Translations under genes and position numbers: made by a program
Shown: positions 16,424-23,389 of the stretch, one piece after another
How the letters are laid out: each line of letters opens with the position of its first letter
Numbering within the stretch: position 1 is the first letter of the stretch
Source: Bacteroidia bacterium
GTDB taxonomy: Bacteria; Bacteroidota; Bacteroidia; B-17B0; Aurantibacillaceae
Assembly: GCA_022841465.1 (NCBI GenBank)
Contig: JALHRL010000005.1
Location: 62,001-126,000, forward strand
DNA: 64,000 bases
Direction of reading: 5' to 3'
The notes under the pieces: model-generated
The model's input: only the letters and a program-made list of their open reading frames with translations
What the model was told of the DNA's origin: nothing
Database searches by the model: none

Positions 16424-16532
16424 TCGGAATCCTGCGCCAGGGATGCGAAAGGTTTAGCTCTTTTTTGTGAAGCGGTAGCGTAGCAAAAAAAGCCGAAGCG
16501 AAGCCTGCAGCAGCCCGCCCGGGCGCCCAAAA
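16424..16532. repeat. GC-rich intergenic element, second copy type
   Basis: A GC-rich stretch in AT-rich flanks. Read on the minus strand it begins TTGGGCGCC, identical to the first nine bases of the 8613-8788 element, followed by CGGGCGGGC. It contains a stem made from CTTTTTTG / CAAAAAAG-type arms around a GC loop. No coding frame. Lies between the helicase terminator and the end of the four-gene envelope operon. Confidence 0.55.
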
Positions 16533-16561: not shown

Positions 16562-18550
16562 CTATTTAAAAATTCCCATCTTCACTAATTCTTCCAAGTA
16601 AACTTTTTTACCTTGATACACTGCAATTACAAAGGCATCTTTTTGGCCTGCGGTAATTGCTTTCTTATTTAAGTCCCAAGCCTCTTGAAGTGTTTTAAAT
16701 TTACCGCCCACTGTAATGTGCGTAATTTTATTGTTTTCAAAAGTTTTATCAATTTTACCCAATCCCTTTAAATGTTTATAGGTATAGTTTTTTGGGTATT
16801 TGTATGCAGCAACCTGAACCATAAAATCTAATCCATCAACACTAATGCTTCCGTATTTGCCGGCAAAGTTTTTAGTATTGGTGTGTTTTGGGTTTTTAGT
16901 AACAAAATCATCTTTTACAATACCTGCAGAATCATTTTTAACAACCGGGGTAGTATCTTTCGGTATTTCAAAGCGTACATCTAAAATTTTCTCGGTATAA
17001 TCTTCCATAACTGTTGCATCTATTTCGTACACTTTAGCAGGGAATGAATCGTGAGAAAAAGTTAAACGATATTTGTAACCCGGTGGTAATGCACTTAAAA
17101 AATTTCCGGTTACAGAATTTGATTTATTTACATTAAACACTAAAGTATCTTTAGCTATTCGTTCAATTTTTATTTTTGATTCGTAAGGATTTCCTTTTGA
17201 AGTAACTTTACCTTTTACCAAATAAGTAATTGCTTTTGGAGCACCAAAATATCCTTCTAATAAATAAAGATCTTTTAAACCTTGGCCACCCATTTTTCCG
17301 CTGCTGTAGTAGCCGCGTTTACCATTAGCAGCCAATACAAAGTAAATATCGTTATCGGGGGTGTTAATGGGGTAACCTAAATTACTTACAGATTTATAAC
17401 TTGAATCTGTTTCCATTCTGGTTCTAAAAACATCGTAGCCGCCCATACTTTTTTCTCCATTGTGGCTAAAAAACAAGGTAACACCATCTGCATGAATAAA
17501 TGGTGAGTCTTCATCGTATTTGGTGTTAATAGAATCTCCCAAATTTACAACATTTCCCCAGGTAGAATCGGCCAATAATGTAGCTCTGTAAATATCTCTA
17601 CCTCCAAAACCTCCGGGTCTTTCACTTGAAAAATATAAAGTTTTTCCATCGGGTGTAAGAGAACAATGCCCATCCCAATGGTAAGAATTTACCTGACCTG
17701 TAAGTTTAACAGGTATACTAAATTCTTCTCCAATTAAATCACTTTTATAAATATCTCCTTTATCATCACCACCATCGCGGTATATAAATAAGGTGTGACC
17801 GTCAGGACTTAAAGAAATGGCCGCATCATTAGCATTGGTGTTAATATTGTCGGCAGCTTTAGGTTCTCTAATGGTATCATTAAGTTTTACAGAATAGTAA
17901 ACATCCTCGGTGAAAATTCCACCATCACTTGCTTCGCCAAAGGCATTCATTCTACCGCCCTTACTTTTATTTCCTTTGTAGGTATACACAAACATCGATT
18001 CATCTATGGTAATAACCGGTGAATACTCTTCTTCATTTGTGTTTATTGGGCTTCCCACGTTTGTAACCTTTGTTTCAACAGGTGTTGAATAAAGGGCTTT
18101 TGCATTTAGAATGTGTTTTTTCAATAATTCACCTTGTGTTTTTTCTTCAGGAGTATTTTTTTTCTGTTTAAAAAATGCGTCTATTTTTACCAATGCTTCA
18201 TCAAACTTATAATTTAAATGAAGTGCTTTTGCTAAATCGTATTCTATTAAAATAATTTTTTTGTTTCCATCATAGGCTTCTTGTAAATATTCTAAAGCCT
18301 CTAAATGCTTATCACTTCTTGACAGTGCTGTTTTTCCGTACATGTATCTTATAAAAGGTTGGTTGGGATGGTTTTTGTTACAGGCTTCATAAATAGGGAA
18401 AGCCAATTCATGATTCCCTTCTTCGTATAGTAAAAACGCATTTTCAAACGAATCTCTTTCGGTTTTACGCCACTTAGAAGTGTTTGTAGTTTGAGCGCTT
18501 AGTTCAATAGCAAAAAACGTAAGCAATAAAAGGATAATTATTTTTTTCAT
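16562..18550 (-). CDS. PorE-like envelope protein: TPR, PD40 beta-propeller, CarboxypepD_reg-like, SPOR-like
   Basis: 662 residues, last gene of a four-gene operon. Signal peptide MKKIIILLLLTFFAIELSAQ. Residues about 30-150 are TPR-like helices. Residues about 165-430 are WD40-like (PD40) propeller repeats with SPDGHTLFIYRDG, TPDGKTLYFSSERPGGFGGRDIY and HADGVTLFFSHNGEKSMGGYDVF. About 435-530 is a carboxypeptidase-regulatory-like sandwich. The last about 90 residues (FMVQVAAYKYPKNYTY to DAFVIAVYQGKKV) look like a SPOR domain. T9SS protein PorE has TPR, propeller and CRD but an OmpA peptidoglycan-binding end; here SPOR takes that place. Likely a periplasmic anchor linking an outer-membrane complex to cell wall. 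One base separates it from the gene before. Confidence 0.85.
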   Translation of the reverse strand: MKKIIILLLLTFFAIELSAQTTNTSKWRKTERDSFENAFLLYEEGNHELAFPIYEACNKNHPNQPFIRYMYGKTALSRSDKHLEALEYLQEAYDGNKKIILIEYDLAKALHLNYKFDEALVKIDAFFKQKKNTPEEKTQGELLKKHILNAKALYSTPVETKVTNVGSPINTNEEEYSPVITIDESMFVYTYKGNKSKGGRMNAFGEASDGGIFTEDVYYSVKLNDTIREPKAADNINTNANDAAISLSPDGHTLFIYRDGGDDKGDIYKSDLIGEEFSIPVKLTGQVNSYHWDGHCSLTPDGKTLYFSSERPGGFGGRDIYRATLLADSTWGNVVNLGDSINTKYDEDSPFIHADGVTLFFSHNGEKSMGGYDVFRTRMETDSSYKSVSNLGYPINTPDNDIYFVLAANGKRGYYSSGKMGGQGLKDLYLLEGYFGAPKAITYLVKGKVTSKGNPYESKIKIERIAKDTLVFNVNKSNSVTGNFLSALPPGYKYRLTFSHDSFPAKVYEIDATVMEDYTEKILDVRFEIPKDTTPVVKNDSAGIVKDDFVTKNPKHTNTKNFAGKYGSISVDGLDFMVQVAAYKYPKNYTYKHLKGLGKIDKTFENNKITHITVGGKFKTLQEAWDLNKKAITAGQKDAFVIAVYQGKKVYLEELVKMGIFK

Positions 18551-18551
18551 A

Positions 18552-20012
18552 TTATTTTTTAATAATCTTAAATCTTTCTGACTTAAACGCTCCTTCTAAA
18601 ATAATAAAATAAACACCTTTCGAAAGATGGCTTAAATCTATGTTATAATTTTTTTTATCGCCACTTAATTCAGTTCTATAAACAGACTTACCATAGATGT
18701 CGATAGCTTCAAATATAATATTTTTATTTTCACTTCCTAATGTTAAATTAATTATTTCATCAACCAGAGTAGGGTAAATAAAAAAGTTGTTTTCGCGATT
18801 GTTTTTCTTTAATCCTATCACTTCGTTAGTAATTCCTATTAATGTAGAGTCCATTTTAATTAAAAAAACATCCTTATCCTTAGCATTTAAACTAGTAGTA
18901 AAACCAATAGAAACAAAGCCTTTGTCTGAAGTTTCTGTAATATCGAAAGATTCCTCATCCTCCAAAAAACCAATACTTCCGCCACCTTGATAGAAGCCGA
19001 GGTCACCAAAAAGGAAATTTTTACAATCTGTTTTAAAACCTACTTGTTCTCTTGTACTATGAATAAAAACAAATTTCCCAAAATTATAATTACTTCCTGC
19101 TGTAGCTAGCCTATGCCCTTCCTCATCTTCTGTTGCAATACCATAGTTTTGTCTCCATATAAAGTTGAAGGAGTCATCTGTTCTATATAAATAAGCATCT
19201 TTTTTTCCAACAGAATATGACTCAGAAGAACCGGTAAAAATTAGATCATTTGTGGTAGTTTGTTGGATTACATCATTAAAATAATCTAACAAATTCCCTC
19301 CCTCAAATTTTGCCCAAATGGAATCTCCATTAAGAGTTGTTTTAAATGCATAACAATCTCCATTAATATCGTTATAGCTATTTGTTTTACCAACAAAAAG
19401 CAGGTTACCATCATTCAGTATTTCTAAACCATTAAATTCATCATCTTCATTTCCACCAATTTTCTTTTCCCAAACCAAGTTACCGTTAATTAGGTTTAAT
19501 CTTAATGCGTACCCATCTGTTTTTCCATATTTACTGTTATATGTTGTTCCACATACATAGATATCATTGTTGGTACCAATTTCAATGTCATTTCCAAAAT
19601 CCCAATCTAATCCGCCAAATGTTTTTTGCCATAATAGCATGCCATTCTTATCAGTTCTGACTACCCATAAATCATAGCCTCCGTTACCATACGAGTTGGT
19701 GTATCCTACAAAAACAAAACCACTATCTTGCTGATTAAGTACAATTTTTTTACCAACATCTGCTAATGTACCACCAAATGTTTTCTGCCAAACTAAATTT
19801 CCCATACTGTCAATCAACATTAAAATCGCGTCTGTTGTCCCTGCACCATAACTTGTAGTTGAACCAATAACGATATATTGCCTATCAAACGTTTCTTTAA
19901 TTCCATAACCAATATCAATTCCGGCTCCTCCATATTTTGCATAGTATTTCGATGGAGGTTGTGCTTTGCAAACAAAAGCACAAAAAAGGAGTATTATAAA
20001 ACACCTAATCAT
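18552..20012 (-). CDS. T9SS-sorted secreted beta-propeller-like protein
   Basis: 486 residues. Signal peptide MIRCFIILLFCAFVCKAQ. Residues about 25-390 hold repeats of about 50-55 residues with the pattern GG...D.G..I....D..FVFVGYTNSYGNGGYDLWVVRTDKNG then LLWQKTFGG, typical of delta-60/SBBP-like propellers common in Bacteroidota surface proteins. The last 75 residues (FFIYPTLVDEIINLTLG to FKIIKK) are a type-A T9SS sorting domain, with the usual GVYFIIL element. Third gene of the operon, 3 bp after the barrel gene and 1 bp before the PorE-like gene. Probably displayed on or released from the surface; ligand unknown. Confidence 0.88.
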   Translation of the reverse strand: MIRCFIILLFCAFVCKAQPPSKYYAKYGGAGIDIGYGIKETFDRQYIVIGSTTSYGAGTTDAILMLIDSMGNLVWQKTFGGTLADVGKKIVLNQQDSGFVFVGYTNSYGNGGYDLWVVRTDKNGMLLWQKTFGGLDWDFGNDIEIGTNNDIYVCGTTYNSKYGKTDGYALRLNLINGNLVWEKKIGGNEDDEFNGLEILNDGNLLFVGKTNSYNDINGDCYAFKTTLNGDSIWAKFEGGNLLDYFNDVIQQTTTNDLIFTGSSESYSVGKKDAYLYRTDDSFNFIWRQNYGIATEDEEGHRLATAGSNYNFGKFVFIHSTREQVGFKTDCKNFLFGDLGFYQGGGSIGFLEDEESFDITETSDKGFVSIGFTTSLNAKDKDVFLIKMDSTLIGITNEVIGLKKNNRENNFFIYPTLVDEIINLTLGSENKNIIFEAIDIYGKSVYRTELSGDKKNYNIDLSHLSKGVYFIILEGAFKSERFKIIKK

Positions 20013-20015
20013 AAT

Positions 20016-21275
20016 TTATTTAAATTTTTTTGCAATACTAAAAAACACTCCTTGTCCGTAGGCTGATTTAGGTGCTACAAAACCTTGCAGGCTGTTACTC
20101 CCCAATCTAAAAAAGAAATTTTTGTTGGTATAGGTAACAGCTAAGCCAACATTTAATCTGCTATAACCTCCATAACCGGTGTGTAACGAGAAATTAAATT
20201 TGTTTACTTTATATTCGGGTTCTATAAAAAAGTAGGGACGATAATTAGCGTTAAAAATGTAACGGAAACCGGTGTTTAAAACAAAACGTAAATCATTAAA
20301 GTAGGTTTTATTAATAATTACCAAATTGGTTGGAATGTTTACGTTAAAGTTTTCTTTTCGTCCGTTTACAATGTTTTGCAGAATGGTATCTTGATTAATT
20401 TTATTGAGGGTTGAATCTTGTAAATCTAAAATATTATCAATTTTATAACCTTGAAATGTAATAATAGAATCGCTGCTGTATTGTACACTGTTTTTTCTCC
20501 AGTGTATAAAACCAATGTTATTGGCATTTACAACTAAAACACTTTTTTTACCGATTTTACTTTTGTAGGGTGTTTCAAAAAATATATCGGCATTAGCTCC
20601 AATGCCATTAAAGCCAAAAAGATTTCTGTTGTTGGTATCGCTTAATGCTAAATTAAAATTAGAATTTAATTGAATCATTGAAGCATCGGGTGAAGTGTAC
20701 AAAGAAGCATCTTTACCTGTTTTTAAGAAAAAAAGTTGCTCGCCTTTTAAAAAGGAAACCGAGATTCCAATTTTTGCAATAGAATCAACATGGTGTATAA
20801 TGGCACCAAACTTTACTTCTTGAAACCGTAAGGTGTTAACACTTATTTGCGATAAATTTGCTGTTTGCCCTAAAAAACGTTTGTTGCCATAAAACATTAA
20901 ACGGTAAAAATCAGAATTAAAAGAAGCATTTAATACTTCGTGGTTTTTAAACCCAATTAAAAAATCATACTTAGCAGAGCCTTTAACAAAAGCAGTTAAT
21001 CCGTAATTTAAGGTAATTCCAAAATTATTATTCTCTCTCAGCTTTGCCTCAGAGGCGTCTTTCATTTCGTTGTTTATATAACCGCCCCAAATTAATTTAT
21101 TTACCATATCGTTTTTTATGGCGTTGCTTCCGGCTTCGTAATCAACATTTAAAGAAATAGATCTGCCGGTTTGGCTGTAGTTAATAAATTCTGTATTGTA
21201 TTGTGAGAATAAAAAGCTGCTATTTGCAATAAAAACAAAAAACAGGAAATAAAAATATTTAAAATTTATTTTCAA
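20016..21275 (-). CDS. DUF5723-like outer membrane barrel protein
   Basis: 419 residues. The only start that fits the signal peptide (MKINFKYFYFLFFVFIANSS, ending FLFSQ) is a TTG at 21275, one base after the stop of the preceding gene; coupling would explain the weak start. The mature protein is rich in alternating aromatic strands and ends in a C-terminal Phe/Lys strand, like PorV/PorQ-type and DUF5723 barrels. DUF5723 proteins are often encoded next to PD40/OmpA-type proteins. Function is not established. Second gene of the operon. Confidence 0.8.
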   Translation of the reverse strand: MKINFKYFYFLFFVFIANSSFLFSQYNTEFINYSQTGRSISLNVDYEAGSNAIKNDMVNKLIWGGYINNEMKDASEAKLRENNNFGITLNYGLTAFVKGSAKYDFLIGFKNHEVLNASFNSDFYRLMFYGNKRFLGQTANLSQISVNTLRFQEVKFGAIIHHVDSIAKIGISVSFLKGEQLFFLKTGKDASLYTSPDASMIQLNSNFNLALSDTNNRNLFGFNGIGANADIFFETPYKSKIGKKSVLVVNANNIGFIHWRKNSVQYSSDSIITFQGYKIDNILDLQDSTLNKINQDTILQNIVNGRKENFNVNIPTNLVIINKTYFNDLRFVLNTGFRYIFNANYRPYFFIEPEYKVNKFNFSLHTGYGGYSRLNVGLAVTYTNKNFFFRLGSNSLQGFVAPKSAYGQGVFFSIAKKFK

Positions 21276-21276
21276 T

Positions 21277-22863
21277 TTATTTTCTTTTAACTCTGTAGTT
21301 TACATCTATAATCATATCCACATCAATTTCGTATGTGTCTAAAATTTTAATATCAGGAGGATTAGGCGGCATGTTTAGTTTTGCCTTTAATAGTAAACTT
21401 TTGCTCTTTTTAAAATTGGCTAATTTTTGAGTATCAAAAGGAATGTATAATTTTTGGAAAGTAGATTGTGTTACTACATTTTGCGCATTTGTTATACCTT
21501 TTGGAATAGTATTATTTCCAATTTGAAATAAAGAATCAACTACTAATTTGTTTTCATCTAATAAATAAGCTTGCAAAACAGCTTCAAAAGGGTAACTATT
21601 TCGTGCGTTAATTATAATATTTCCATAGTTAACATTGTTTAATTGGTTTAAGTTAGAAAAATCTATTGGAGCCCCTGATTGAAGATAAAAAGCATCGGCA
21701 TTAAATTGCAGCGGAATATTTATGTCTGCCAGTACTTTAATTCCGGTGTTGTAATAGGCAAAATCTGTGTAACCCGACATGTTGCCTAAAGGATTTAATT
21801 TTATTAAGCCACCATACGTTATTTTGTTGGGTAGGTTAGAAAGGTAGTTTAAAATGTTACTGTTGTTTTTATTTAAAGAAATAAATTTTACGGTAGAGTT
21901 TATGTTTCCGTTTACCTCTAATGCACGGTTTATATTTATTGAATTGAGTTGTTGTGCATTTAAACTTACAGTGGAGTTATTTATTGAATTAATAGAATTT
22001 ATTGAATTTAAGTTAGCATTAAATTCAGCTCCAAATTCATTTACAATACTAAAATCAAAAGTAGCGTCACTCAGCATAAAATTCGTAGCCTTAAAATTTT
22101 TAAAAACATCAAAAGTGGCGGTATCAACATCTAAAACAATATCCTGCTGCCCAAAATAACCTTTTGCATATTGCGGAATAATTTGACTATACGATAGCTC
22201 TGCAATTGCACCTTTACCAAATGAAATTTCGGCAGGATTAGCACTGTTGCTAACACTAACGGTGTAATTTTGCATTAATGTATTAAACTGGGCATTACCT
22301 CCCGCAGTTAAATCAACAGCATAACCATTTAATGAATAGGTTTTAATTAAGGAATTGTTACCCGGAGGAATGGTTTCTGAAATTAAAAACGGTTGGTTGT
22401 TTTTAATTACACCGGGTAGTAAATATTTAAAATCTATCGGTTCTAACAATGTATTACTAAATTTTACAGATAAAATCCCTGATCTAATTACACTGTATTT
22501 TAAAGCTACACCATTAGCAACATTAAAAACAAGCGGACTAGGGGGCAGCAAATTAATAGTTTGTCCCGGATTTAATGTGGTGGTAGAAAACGAGGGCCAT
22601 AAAAATTGATTGGTAATGGTAGTATCAGGTAATTTTAATAAAGAATCAATTTTTATGTAAGCCAATTGCCTGTTAACGCGCAGTGTTAATAAACCCGTAG
22701 AACCCGATTGAAATAAACTATCGTCTAAAAAATTTTTAATATTTAGTTTACTGCTTACTATTGGGCCTGTAATATCCACATCCCAACTGGTAACCGTTTC
22801 TTTGCGGCAAGATGTAAAGGCTAAAAAGGCAGCTGAAAATATGATAATTATCAGAAATCGCAT
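21277..22863 (-). CDS. outer-membrane-associated lipoprotein of unknown function
   Basis: First gene of the four-gene operon. I use the ATG at 22863 (MRFLIIIIFSAAFLAFTSC, lipobox AFTSC at residue 19), giving 528 residues; a GTG at 22869 is possible but lies within the predicted -7 element. The mature part is nearly all beta, with many Asn/Ser/Leu and a tandem run NSINSINSINNS near residue 280-300. No enzymatic motif. It starts with RKETVTSWDVDITGPIV, the kind of start seen in Bacteroidota lipoproteins paired with DUF5723 barrels. It could be the lipoprotein partner of the downstream barrel. Identity beyond lipoprotein is unknown. Confidence 0.85.
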   Translation of the reverse strand: MRFLIIIIFSAAFLAFTSCRKETVTSWDVDITGPIVSSKLNIKNFLDDSLFQSGSTGLLTLRVNRQLAYIKIDSLLKLPDTTITNQFLWPSFSTTTLNPGQTINLLPPSPLVFNVANGVALKYSVIRSGILSVKFSNTLLEPIDFKYLLPGVIKNNQPFLISETIPPGNNSLIKTYSLNGYAVDLTAGGNAQFNTLMQNYTVSVSNSANPAEISFGKGAIAELSYSQIIPQYAKGYFGQQDIVLDVDTATFDVFKNFKATNFMLSDATFDFSIVNEFGAEFNANLNSINSINSINNSTVSLNAQQLNSININRALEVNGNINSTVKFISLNKNNSNILNYLSNLPNKITYGGLIKLNPLGNMSGYTDFAYYNTGIKVLADINIPLQFNADAFYLQSGAPIDFSNLNQLNNVNYGNIIINARNSYPFEAVLQAYLLDENKLVVDSLFQIGNNTIPKGITNAQNVVTQSTFQKLYIPFDTQKLANFKKSKSLLLKAKLNMPPNPPDIKILDTYEIDVDMIIDVNYRVKRK

Positions 22864-22868
22864 CTTCA

Positions 22869-22897
22869 CAAATATACTTAATTTAGTAGCTAAACAA
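22869..22897 (-). promoter_or_regulatory. promoter of the four-gene envelope operon
   Basis: Minus strand carries TTG (22897-22895), an 18-bp spacer, and TATATTTG (22876-22869), the best -33/-7 pair in the window. The ATG follows five bases after the -7 element, so the transcript would have almost no 5' leader. Confidence 0.6.
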
Positions 22898-22963: not shown

Positions 22964-23389
22964 ATGCGCTTAAACACACGCTTTTATATTTCTTGGTTAC
23001 TTGGTTCTATTTGTATGTACCTGTTATTTTATTTTTGGCATGGCGTTTTTTTAAATGATTTTAAAAAAATTAATTTTCCGTTTGAGTGGCTAATTATTTT
23101 TACGGTTATTACCTATTTTGCAATCTCTTTTATTCTTTATGCTGTTTATGAATCTAAACCTATGAAAAACATCTATAACTTTTTTGTTAGAGGTGTAGTT
23201 TCTGGTGCATTGGTTGGATTTGTAATTTTTATTGTTTCCATTGTTGTTACTATTTCAATTTCTCGTCATTTAACCATTAAACATTTAATGTTAGATTGTA
23301 TATGGCAAATATGCGAGCAAATAATTGGTGGTTTAATTATGGCAACTGTTAAAGTTTTTGTTACTGACCTGCGTCACGAAGAAGTTTAA
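22964..23389 (+). CDS. small integral membrane protein of unknown function
   Basis: 141 residues with four predicted membrane helices: about 8-27, 41-62, 74-98 and 112-132. It ends in a charged tail (DLRHEEV). Hydrophobic throughout, no recognised motif; the overall look is close to the DUF4199-like four-helix membrane proteins but I would not assign it. Divergent from the four-gene envelope operon with only 100 bp between, and preceded by a palindrome over its promoter. The ATG is the first in frame after that promoter. Confidence 0.75.
   Translation: MRLNTRFYISWLLGSICMYLLFYFWHGVFLNDFKKINFPFEWLIIFTVITYFAISFILYAVYESKPMKNIYNFFVRGVVSGALVGFVIFIVSIVVTISISRHLTIKHLMLDCIWQICEQIIGGLIMATVKVFVTDLRHEEV

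Follow-up and report, generated by a model that had tools for sequence, protein, structure and literature searches.

Whether four closely packed genes of a Bacteroidota genome encode a single assembly that receives a secreted protein at the outer membrane and holds it there, or whether only some of them belong together, is the question raised by the locus described here. It lies in a stretch of 64,000 nucleotides of a Bacteroidia bacterium of the Aurantibacillaceae (assembly GCA_022841465.1, contig JALHRL010000005.1, positions 62,001-126,000, forward strand), which is called the window below and whose numbering is used for all features of the locus. The four genes are located on the minus strand between positions 16562 and 22863 and code, in the order of transcription, for a lipoprotein (gene 1, 21277-22863, 528 amino acids), an outer-membrane barrel of the DUF5723 family (gene 2, 20016-21275, 419 amino acids), a secreted β-propeller protein with a sorting domain of the type IX secretion system (T9SS; gene 3, 18552-20012, 486 amino acids) and a PorE-like protein (gene 4, 16562-18550, 662 amino acids). 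The intergenic gaps comprise 1, 3 and 1 bases, in keeping with the 1-3 bases given in an earlier note on this DNA; the TTG start codon of the barrel gene is thus found one base past the stop codon of the lipoprotein gene, and the genes may be translationally coupled. Conservation of the locus is layered: the pair of lipoprotein and barrel is the most widespread part, the propeller comes next and the PorE-like gene is mainly associated with the cluster in this genus. We tentatively favor the view that the lipoprotein and the barrel form a unit, which receives and retains the exported propeller and which, in this genus, is tied to the cell wall by the PorE-like protein; the contacts between the four proteins are inferred.

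Conservation of the locus within and beyond the genus

The lipoprotein is present in 34 of 36 genomes of the same genus. Loci of 24 of these 34 genomes were retrieved, chosen for sufficient room downstream; the ten remaining genomes include three unfavorable cases, in which the barrel (G004) or the propeller match (G002) sits on another contig or a barrel match is missing (G005). In all 24 loci, the barrel is encoded 3' of the lipoprotein on the same strand, in 22 of them by the next open reading frame (ORF); in one locus (L070), it is short and weakly matched. The propeller gene has the same orientation in 22 loci and the opposite one in L049 and L055. Further on, 21 loci have a PorE-like gene on the same strand, one of these genes being a contig-edge fragment. 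All four genes are clustered in 21 of the 24 loci, and in 19 of these 21 the propeller gene shares the strand of the others. The earlier note had made its proposal depend on the four genes being kept together in relatives; this is the case within the genus, whereas all four are not kept together beyond it.

The PorE-like gene directly follows the propeller gene in 6 of the 24 genus loci, and other genes intervene elsewhere. Eight inserted genes from seven loci were scanned for families. Seven of them lie between the propeller and the PorE-like gene and encode five PMT_2 glycosyltransferases, one MBOAT acyltransferase and one protein of 338 amino acids without a match; the insertion between the barrel and the propeller in L055 (408 amino acids) has no family match either. 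The PMT_2 and MBOAT genes vary between loci (L048, L052, L056, L060, L061 and L063) and are partly encoded on the opposite strand, and the interval may represent a hot spot of surface-glycan genes.

A wider set of 69 named loci stems from one scan of genome contigs, all of which belong to metagenome-assembled genomes according to their titles. The barrel is encoded by the next ORF after the lipoprotein in 64 of them; the exceptions are two loci cut off by a contig edge, one in which the lipoprotein ORF is broken and two with a different gene at this position. Among the 53 barrel-paired loci with at least 3.6 kb of downstream sequence, a propeller is encoded downstream on the same strand in 46, either directly (25 loci), after kdsA (18 loci) or within three ORFs (3 loci). 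In the 18 loci with an interposed kdsA, a gene for lipopolysaccharide synthesis, the propeller is still the next gene; the kdsA gene of L151 (4473-5288) passes the NCBIfam cut-off for 3-deoxy-8-phosphooctulonate synthase. A PorE-like gene within five ORFs on the same strand was found in 12 of the 44 loci with 7 kb of sequence, in 4 of them directly after the propeller, and in 6 of the 44 it is located on the opposite strand. The core of lipoprotein, barrel and propeller is therefore kept far beyond the genus, but the description of the four genes as a complete complex was an overstatement, considering the rarity of the PorE-like gene and the interposed kdsA. The spacing between the lipoprotein and barrel ORFs ranges from -60 to +30 bases in 79 of 88 loci, a count that pools L047-L069 with L117-L185 and in which genomes are partly repeated; many of the ORF pairs overlap by 1 or 4 bases.

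In a sample of 296 Bacteroidota genomes, the lipoprotein profile matches 77 genomes, many of the matches spanning one domain only and one (G151) just 38 N-terminal residues. DUF5723 was found in 179 genomes, a count that takes in a group of OmpA-fused proteins described below. In at least 61 of the 77 genomes, the lipoprotein match is followed on the same strand by a DUF5723 gene at a distance of no more than 1.9 kb. The pair also seems to exist in a shorter form. In one family (f27), judged from neighboring genes to be the Flavobacteriaceae, an ORF of 178-199 amino acids precedes the DUF5723 gene in all 22 loci that were retrieved (L188-L209), and the 16 of these short ORFs that were aligned look like lipoproteins. 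A profile of these short proteins can be aligned to the C-terminal domain of the long lipoprotein (hhalign probability 89.7%, E 1.8e-6), whereas reversed or column-shuffled control profiles did not exceed 0.2% and those of unrelated barrels gave 0.8, 2.4 and 10.3%; the barrel profiles of this family and of the genus match with a probability of 98% and E 1.9e-13. Since both short-form profiles match their long-form counterparts, the pair looks ancient and the lipoprotein looks modular, comprising one domain or more. A lipoprotein of a single domain beside DUF5723, as in this sampled family, would be well suited for genetic studies. A mobile or recently assembled cluster was considered and rejected, as the sequence distances of lipoprotein, barrel and propeller track those of rarA in 26 loci (r 0.97, 0.94 and 0.85, respectively).

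Features of the four proteins

The family labels given earlier to the first three proteins agree with the matches found here. The lipoprotein starts with ATG and has a lipobox with cysteine 19 (codon 22809-22807) in the context SCRKE. Pfam and NCBIfam contain no family that it matches at E <= 1, and a scan of 26 aligned homologs yielded isolated, unrelated weak matches only. An AlphaFold model based on 26 sequences (pLDDT 85.5, pTM 0.66) is almost entirely composed of β-strands. Its best fold match is 4h3w, the protein BDI_1231 of Parabacteroides distasonis, whose entry is named 'putative secreted protein' and gives no function (Z 17.4, root mean square deviation (rmsd) 7.1, 290 residues aligned of a 313-residue chain); 4h3w is also the only PDB sequence touched by the lipoprotein profile at E <= 10 (E 1.1). 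The large rmsd and the low Foldseek TM-scores of 0.26/0.40 mean that the modeled lipoprotein and 4h3w would differ in their domain arrangement. The other fold matches, PNGase F, virus capsids and BcsB (Z <= 8.7), were dismissed as common β-sandwich resemblance.

The barrel matches PF18990 with E 2e-10, and its model (pLDDT 83.4, pTM 0.78) is of the FadL type by predicted fold. The highest Z scores were obtained with TodX (18.5) and FadL (18.3), followed by chain 9n2d_B of the Flavobacterium johnsoniae β-barrel assembly machinery (BAM; Z 16.4, rmsd 7.0, 296 residues aligned) and the T9SS chain 8gl6_F (15.8); going by the titles of the PDB entries, we take 9n2d_B to be BamG and 8gl6_F to be PorV. 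As these scores are close, the fold does not choose between a lipid channel, a T9SS shuttle and a BAM subunit. At the sequence level, none of 25 barrel homologs matches an NCBIfam T9SS model at E <= 0.1, and the barrel profile matches no PDB sequence, BAM chains included, at E <= 10. No named function is assigned to the lipoprotein or the barrel by Pfam or NCBIfam. A second DUF5723 gene is encoded in the same genome (L186, G000:C4:410-1684) beside a release-factor-like gene; its product contains thrombospondin-3-like repeats as judged by eye. A relative of this protein (L217:1384-3441) is a DUF5723 paralog with TSP_3 repeats and a C-terminal OmpA domain. At least two DUF5723 groups thus exist, one of which is fused to a wall-binding domain.

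The propeller protein consists of delta-60/SBBP-type repeats, and its profile matches the propeller protein CylK with E 7.4e-37. Residues 412-486 (18555-18779, minus strand) form a C-terminal T9SS sorting domain, which matches TIGR04183 (26.8 bits with a cut-off of 23, E 3.7e-6) and PF18962 (E 1.1e-7), and thus the type A model only and not type B; a type A domain was found at E <= 0.01 in 18 of 20 propeller homologs. With TIGR04183 above the cut-off and SprA (E 8.5e-161) encoded in the same genome, gene 3 has the hallmarks of type A cargo. The propeller profile matches 14 PDB sequences at E <= 0.01, none of which is named PorZ, although it was not checked whether PorZ is represented there at all. 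The genome of the window contains at least 21 propeller matches at E <= 0.001, including the protein itself.

The PorE-like protein combines weak tetratricopeptide (TPR) repeats with a PD40 propeller (E 1.2e-20); among its homologs, PD40 was detected in 17 of 17 and TPR_Slam in 15 of 17 at E <= 0.5. Its scores against the NCBIfam models CHU_0125_OmpA (193.3 bits) and T9SS_PorE (166 bits) stay below the respective cut-offs of 620 and 600, and the matches to T9SS_PorE and CHU_0125_OmpA end at residues 537 and 503. Where PorE has an OmpA domain, residues 576-642 of gene 4 (16625-16825, minus strand) form a SPOR-like domain, which was matched weakly: the C-terminus alone gives E 0.0045 and 17.7 bits (cut-off 21), the whole protein E 0.12, and the PDB SPOR domain 1x60 matches this region with E 0.51. 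SPOR was seen at E <= 1 in 6 of 17 homologous C-termini, and within the genus, conservation extends over the last 100 residues. OmpA was found neither in gene 4 nor, at E <= 1, in any of the 17 homologous C-termini, and there is no cysteine in the signal region that could form a lipobox. The earlier designation as a periplasmic anchor is hence less well founded than the note had it, as OmpA and a lipoprotein cysteine are missing and the SPOR match stays below the threshold. Strict PorE membership was rejected on the same grounds, namely scores below the cut-off and the absence of OmpA and lipobox. If the protein does bind the wall, PorE-type anchors can lack OmpA, as the locus suggests.

Possible functions of the lipoprotein-barrel pair

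Several complexes are known that resemble the putative assembly. In Porphyromonas gingivalis, wall-binding PorE forms a complex with the FadL-type barrel PorP and the type B cargo PG1035, and six porP-like genes of F. johnsoniae are reported to adjoin porE-like genes (PMC9143113). For F. johnsoniae operons with a PorE homolog, a cargo and a shuttle, static wall-anchored complexes have been proposed (PMC12618676). These PorP/SprF systems share with the locus a FadL-type barrel, a T9SS-exported surface protein and a PorE-type protein; the cargo is described as held by the barrel and the barrel as tied to the wall (PMC9143113, PMC12618676). In contrast, the barrel encoded here belongs to DUF5723, the cargo is of type A and the barrel is joined by a lipoprotein whose family is unnamed; the PorE-like protein differs from PorE by its missing OmpA domain and lipobox, while the order of TPR followed by PD40 is common to both. 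The assembly may therefore work like PorP-PorE-cargo complexes by analogy, without belonging to their families. A second precedent is PorZ, an exported protein with two propellers and a retained sorting domain, which acts in the T9SS (PMC5121618). The attachment complex PorU-PorV-PorQ-PorZ likewise joins an exported propeller with a sorting domain to a barrel, PorV (PMC5121618, PMC9143113). PorZ, however, has two propellers and is not among the PDB sequence matches of gene 3, and the barrel matches no NCBIfam T9SS barrel model; membership in PorP/SprF, PorV, PorQ or PorZ was accordingly rejected.

With these precedents, the earlier statement that no such assembly is known was too strong. The notion of an undescribed system may hold for the lipoprotein and the barrel, which lack a named function, but not for the assembly, which has close known analogs. 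The lipoprotein-DUF5723 pair itself is apparently undescribed: no paper on the pair or on DUF5723 was found in the open PMC literature, where absence is not proof, and none relevant to BDI_1231, 4H3W or PF18990 among the titles and abstracts judged there.

A link of the pair to the T9SS is suggested by its distribution among the 296 genomes. SprA was found in 228 of them overall, in 177 of the 179 DUF5723 genomes and in all 77 lipoprotein genomes. Conversely, DUF5723 occurs in 177 of 228 SprA-bearing but in 2 of 68 SprA-less genomes; the corresponding figures for the lipoprotein are 77 and 0, whereas the control FadL family Toluene_X is present in 193 of 228 and 29 of 68. In one SprA-less genome (G119), the DUF5723 match is marginal (E 9.3e-4). 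This co-occurrence is suggestive only, as discussed below.

In the view that we place first, an ancient outer-membrane unit of lipoprotein and DUF5723 barrel, encoded by a tight gene pair, would have gained a T9SS cargo and an anchor at this locus. The propeller would leave the cell through the T9SS, and the DUF5723 barrel would catch its C-terminal domain, or the face of the propeller, and hold it at the surface. The lipoprotein would serve as a fixed β-rich partner of the barrel, and the PorE-like protein would tie the barrel to the cell wall from the periplasm, resulting in a static, wall-linked surface module. The preference for this scheme is based on the conserved order of lipoprotein, barrel and propeller, the sorting domains, the FadL-type fold, the co-occurrence with SprA and the OmpA-fused DUF5723 protein L217. 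FadL-type barrels recur as surface sorting points in Bacteroidota (PorV, PorP/SprF, BamG), and another conserved barrel, regularly accompanied by a lipoprotein, would provide a new handle on the retention of secreted proteins.

A number of observations weigh against this retention scheme. In two of the 69 loci, the lipoprotein is followed by an ORF that resembles a TonB receptor by eye (L130 and L132, the reappearing genomes G005 and G004), seven of the 53 loci lack a propeller on the same strand, four of these having one on the opposite strand, and no propeller was noticed within the 1.5 kb flanks of the 22 flavobacterial loci. When distances are controlled for rarA, the partial correlations fall to 0.47 for lipoprotein and barrel, 0.31 for barrel and propeller and 0.19 for lipoprotein and propeller; with kdsA as control, they amount to 0.78, 0.66 and 0.62 for the same pairs; we count this co-variation, for which there is no null distribution, as weak. 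DUF5723 is encoded by the SprA-less genome G294, and the control genome of Bacteroides ihuae likewise has a DUF5723 match but no SprA match. The association with SprA may moreover reflect ancestry, a single family accounting for 16 of the 20 SprA-less genomes listed. For type A cargo, the use of PorV is reported (PMC12618676), and the only candidate for a wall-binding domain in gene 4 is the sub-threshold SPOR region. Finally, the published signal for surface export of Bacteroidota lipoproteins consists of K-(D/E)2 or acidic residues at positions +2 to +6 (PMC5080379). The mature lipoprotein of the window starts with C-R-K-E-T and lacks this signal, as do the lipoprotein N-termini CRKE and CRKP. 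Two acidic residues at +2 to +6 were counted in 2 of 25 long lipoproteins as opposed to 10 of 16 short ones and a basic residue at +2 or +3 in 21 of the 25, although the wrong cysteine was picked in about 7 of these 41 rows. The lipoprotein may reside on either side of the membrane.

The next possibility, to which we give the second place, is that the pair of lipoprotein and barrel serves the envelope in general, independently of secretion, and that the propeller and PorE-like genes are conserved neighbors which only share its transcription. The pair could, for instance, be a channel for hydrophobic compounds or lipids with a fixed lipoprotein, in agreement with the scores of FadL and TodX, which equal or exceed those of the T9SS chains, or an accessory factor in outer-membrane assembly. 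The latter has a precedent in BamG: this FadL-type barrel serves as the anchor of the lipoprotein BamH and binds the tail of a surface lipoprotein (PMC12611786); a FadL-type fold is reported for PorV, PorP-like proteins and BamG alike (PMC9143113, PMC12611786). A more general role would fit the wider distribution of the pair compared with its neighbors, the kdsA gene that separates barrel and propeller in 18 of 53 loci and the rarA-, LpxL- and pyrG-like genes near single loci that were inspected. However, the adjacency of the propeller is retained in 46 of 53 loci, even after kdsA, and the co-occurrence with SprA, with the caveat of ancestry, would not be expected. BamG and BamH resemble the pair as a FadL-type barrel with a partner outer-membrane lipoprotein, but neither the lipoprotein nor the barrel profile matches a BAM chain in sequence, and identity with BamG/BamH was rejected for this reason. 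Furthermore, the genes of the pair are adjacent and accompanied by a T9SS cargo, whereas the locus numbers of bamG (Fjoh_1412) and bamH (Fjoh_0823) are distant. BamH is not among the fold matches listed for the lipoprotein model, a listing that is no exclusion of a shared fold. BamG could not be located in the genome of the window, since its two PF03349 matches are both below the cut-off.

Another explanation concerns gene 4 only and is compatible with all other readings: the PorE-like protein could be one of many PorE-type paralogs that settled behind the operon in this genus and anchors something else. The genome contains at least 21 matches to it at E <= 0.001, itself included, and in the wider set the gene is a same-strand neighbor in 12 of 44 loci, with six further cases on the opposite strand. 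Its clustering in 21 of 24 genus loci, despite the variable genes in between, speaks against this explanation, which we consider less likely than not. The retention scheme might also be extended to the whole phylum, with the pair acting as a second cargo-receiving station of the T9SS, which catches type A cargo outside PorV/PorU and is fixed to the wall in this genus by a SPOR-ended PorE variant; we consider this broader version unlikely. Least probable of all is a lipopolysaccharide-linked attachment module, in which the propeller binds lipopolysaccharide like PorZ and is positioned by barrel and lipoprotein for the modification of T9SS cargo: it would account for the kdsA gene found within the cluster (18 of 53 loci) and for the five PMT_2 and one MBOAT genes among the seven insertions before the PorE-like gene (six genus loci), and PorZ (PMC5121618), credited in a paper title with the delivery of anionic lipopolysaccharide to PorU (PMC8545088), is a precedent, but none of the 14 PDB matches of the propeller is named PorZ and the placement of kdsA, a housekeeping gene, may be incidental.

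Promoter, terminator and flanking sequences

A predicted promoter of the Bacteroidota type, TTG-N18-TATATTTG (22869-22897, minus strand), ends 5 bases upstream of the ATG of the lipoprotein gene. Elements of this type are not over-represented in the window, with 14 observed and 16.25 expected under a first-order Markov model. In the genus, the TATATTTG box begins 5-17 bases before the start of the longest ORF in 18 of the 24 loci, at 13-14 bases in 12 of them, which bears out the earlier claim of one good promoter. In three loci (L052, L055 and L067), it lies within the longest ORF, 29 or 58 bases in, suggesting that the true start of the lipoprotein is later there; it is missing in the three remaining loci. 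The placement is kept although the lipoproteins of the genus are only ~30-68% identical. As the box lies just upstream of the start codon in the window and in most of the retrieved congeners, the operon transcript is probably near-leaderless. A scan for sigma-70 sites gave 39 sites in comparison to 33.5 expected by chance (sd 5.8), and hence no excess.

A terminator-like hairpin with a T run is located at 16325-16296 on the minus strand, ~240 bases past the last stop codon. A short GC-rich stretch just 3' of the PorE-like gene (16504-16520) occurs as a single copy in the window, and the whole spacer after this gene has a G+C content of 36% only. On the other side of the operon, the lipoprotein gene adjoins a divergent gene for a membrane-like protein of 141 amino acids (22964-23389) without a Pfam match, and ORFs of about 141-167 amino acids occupy the position beside the lipoprotein in many loci.

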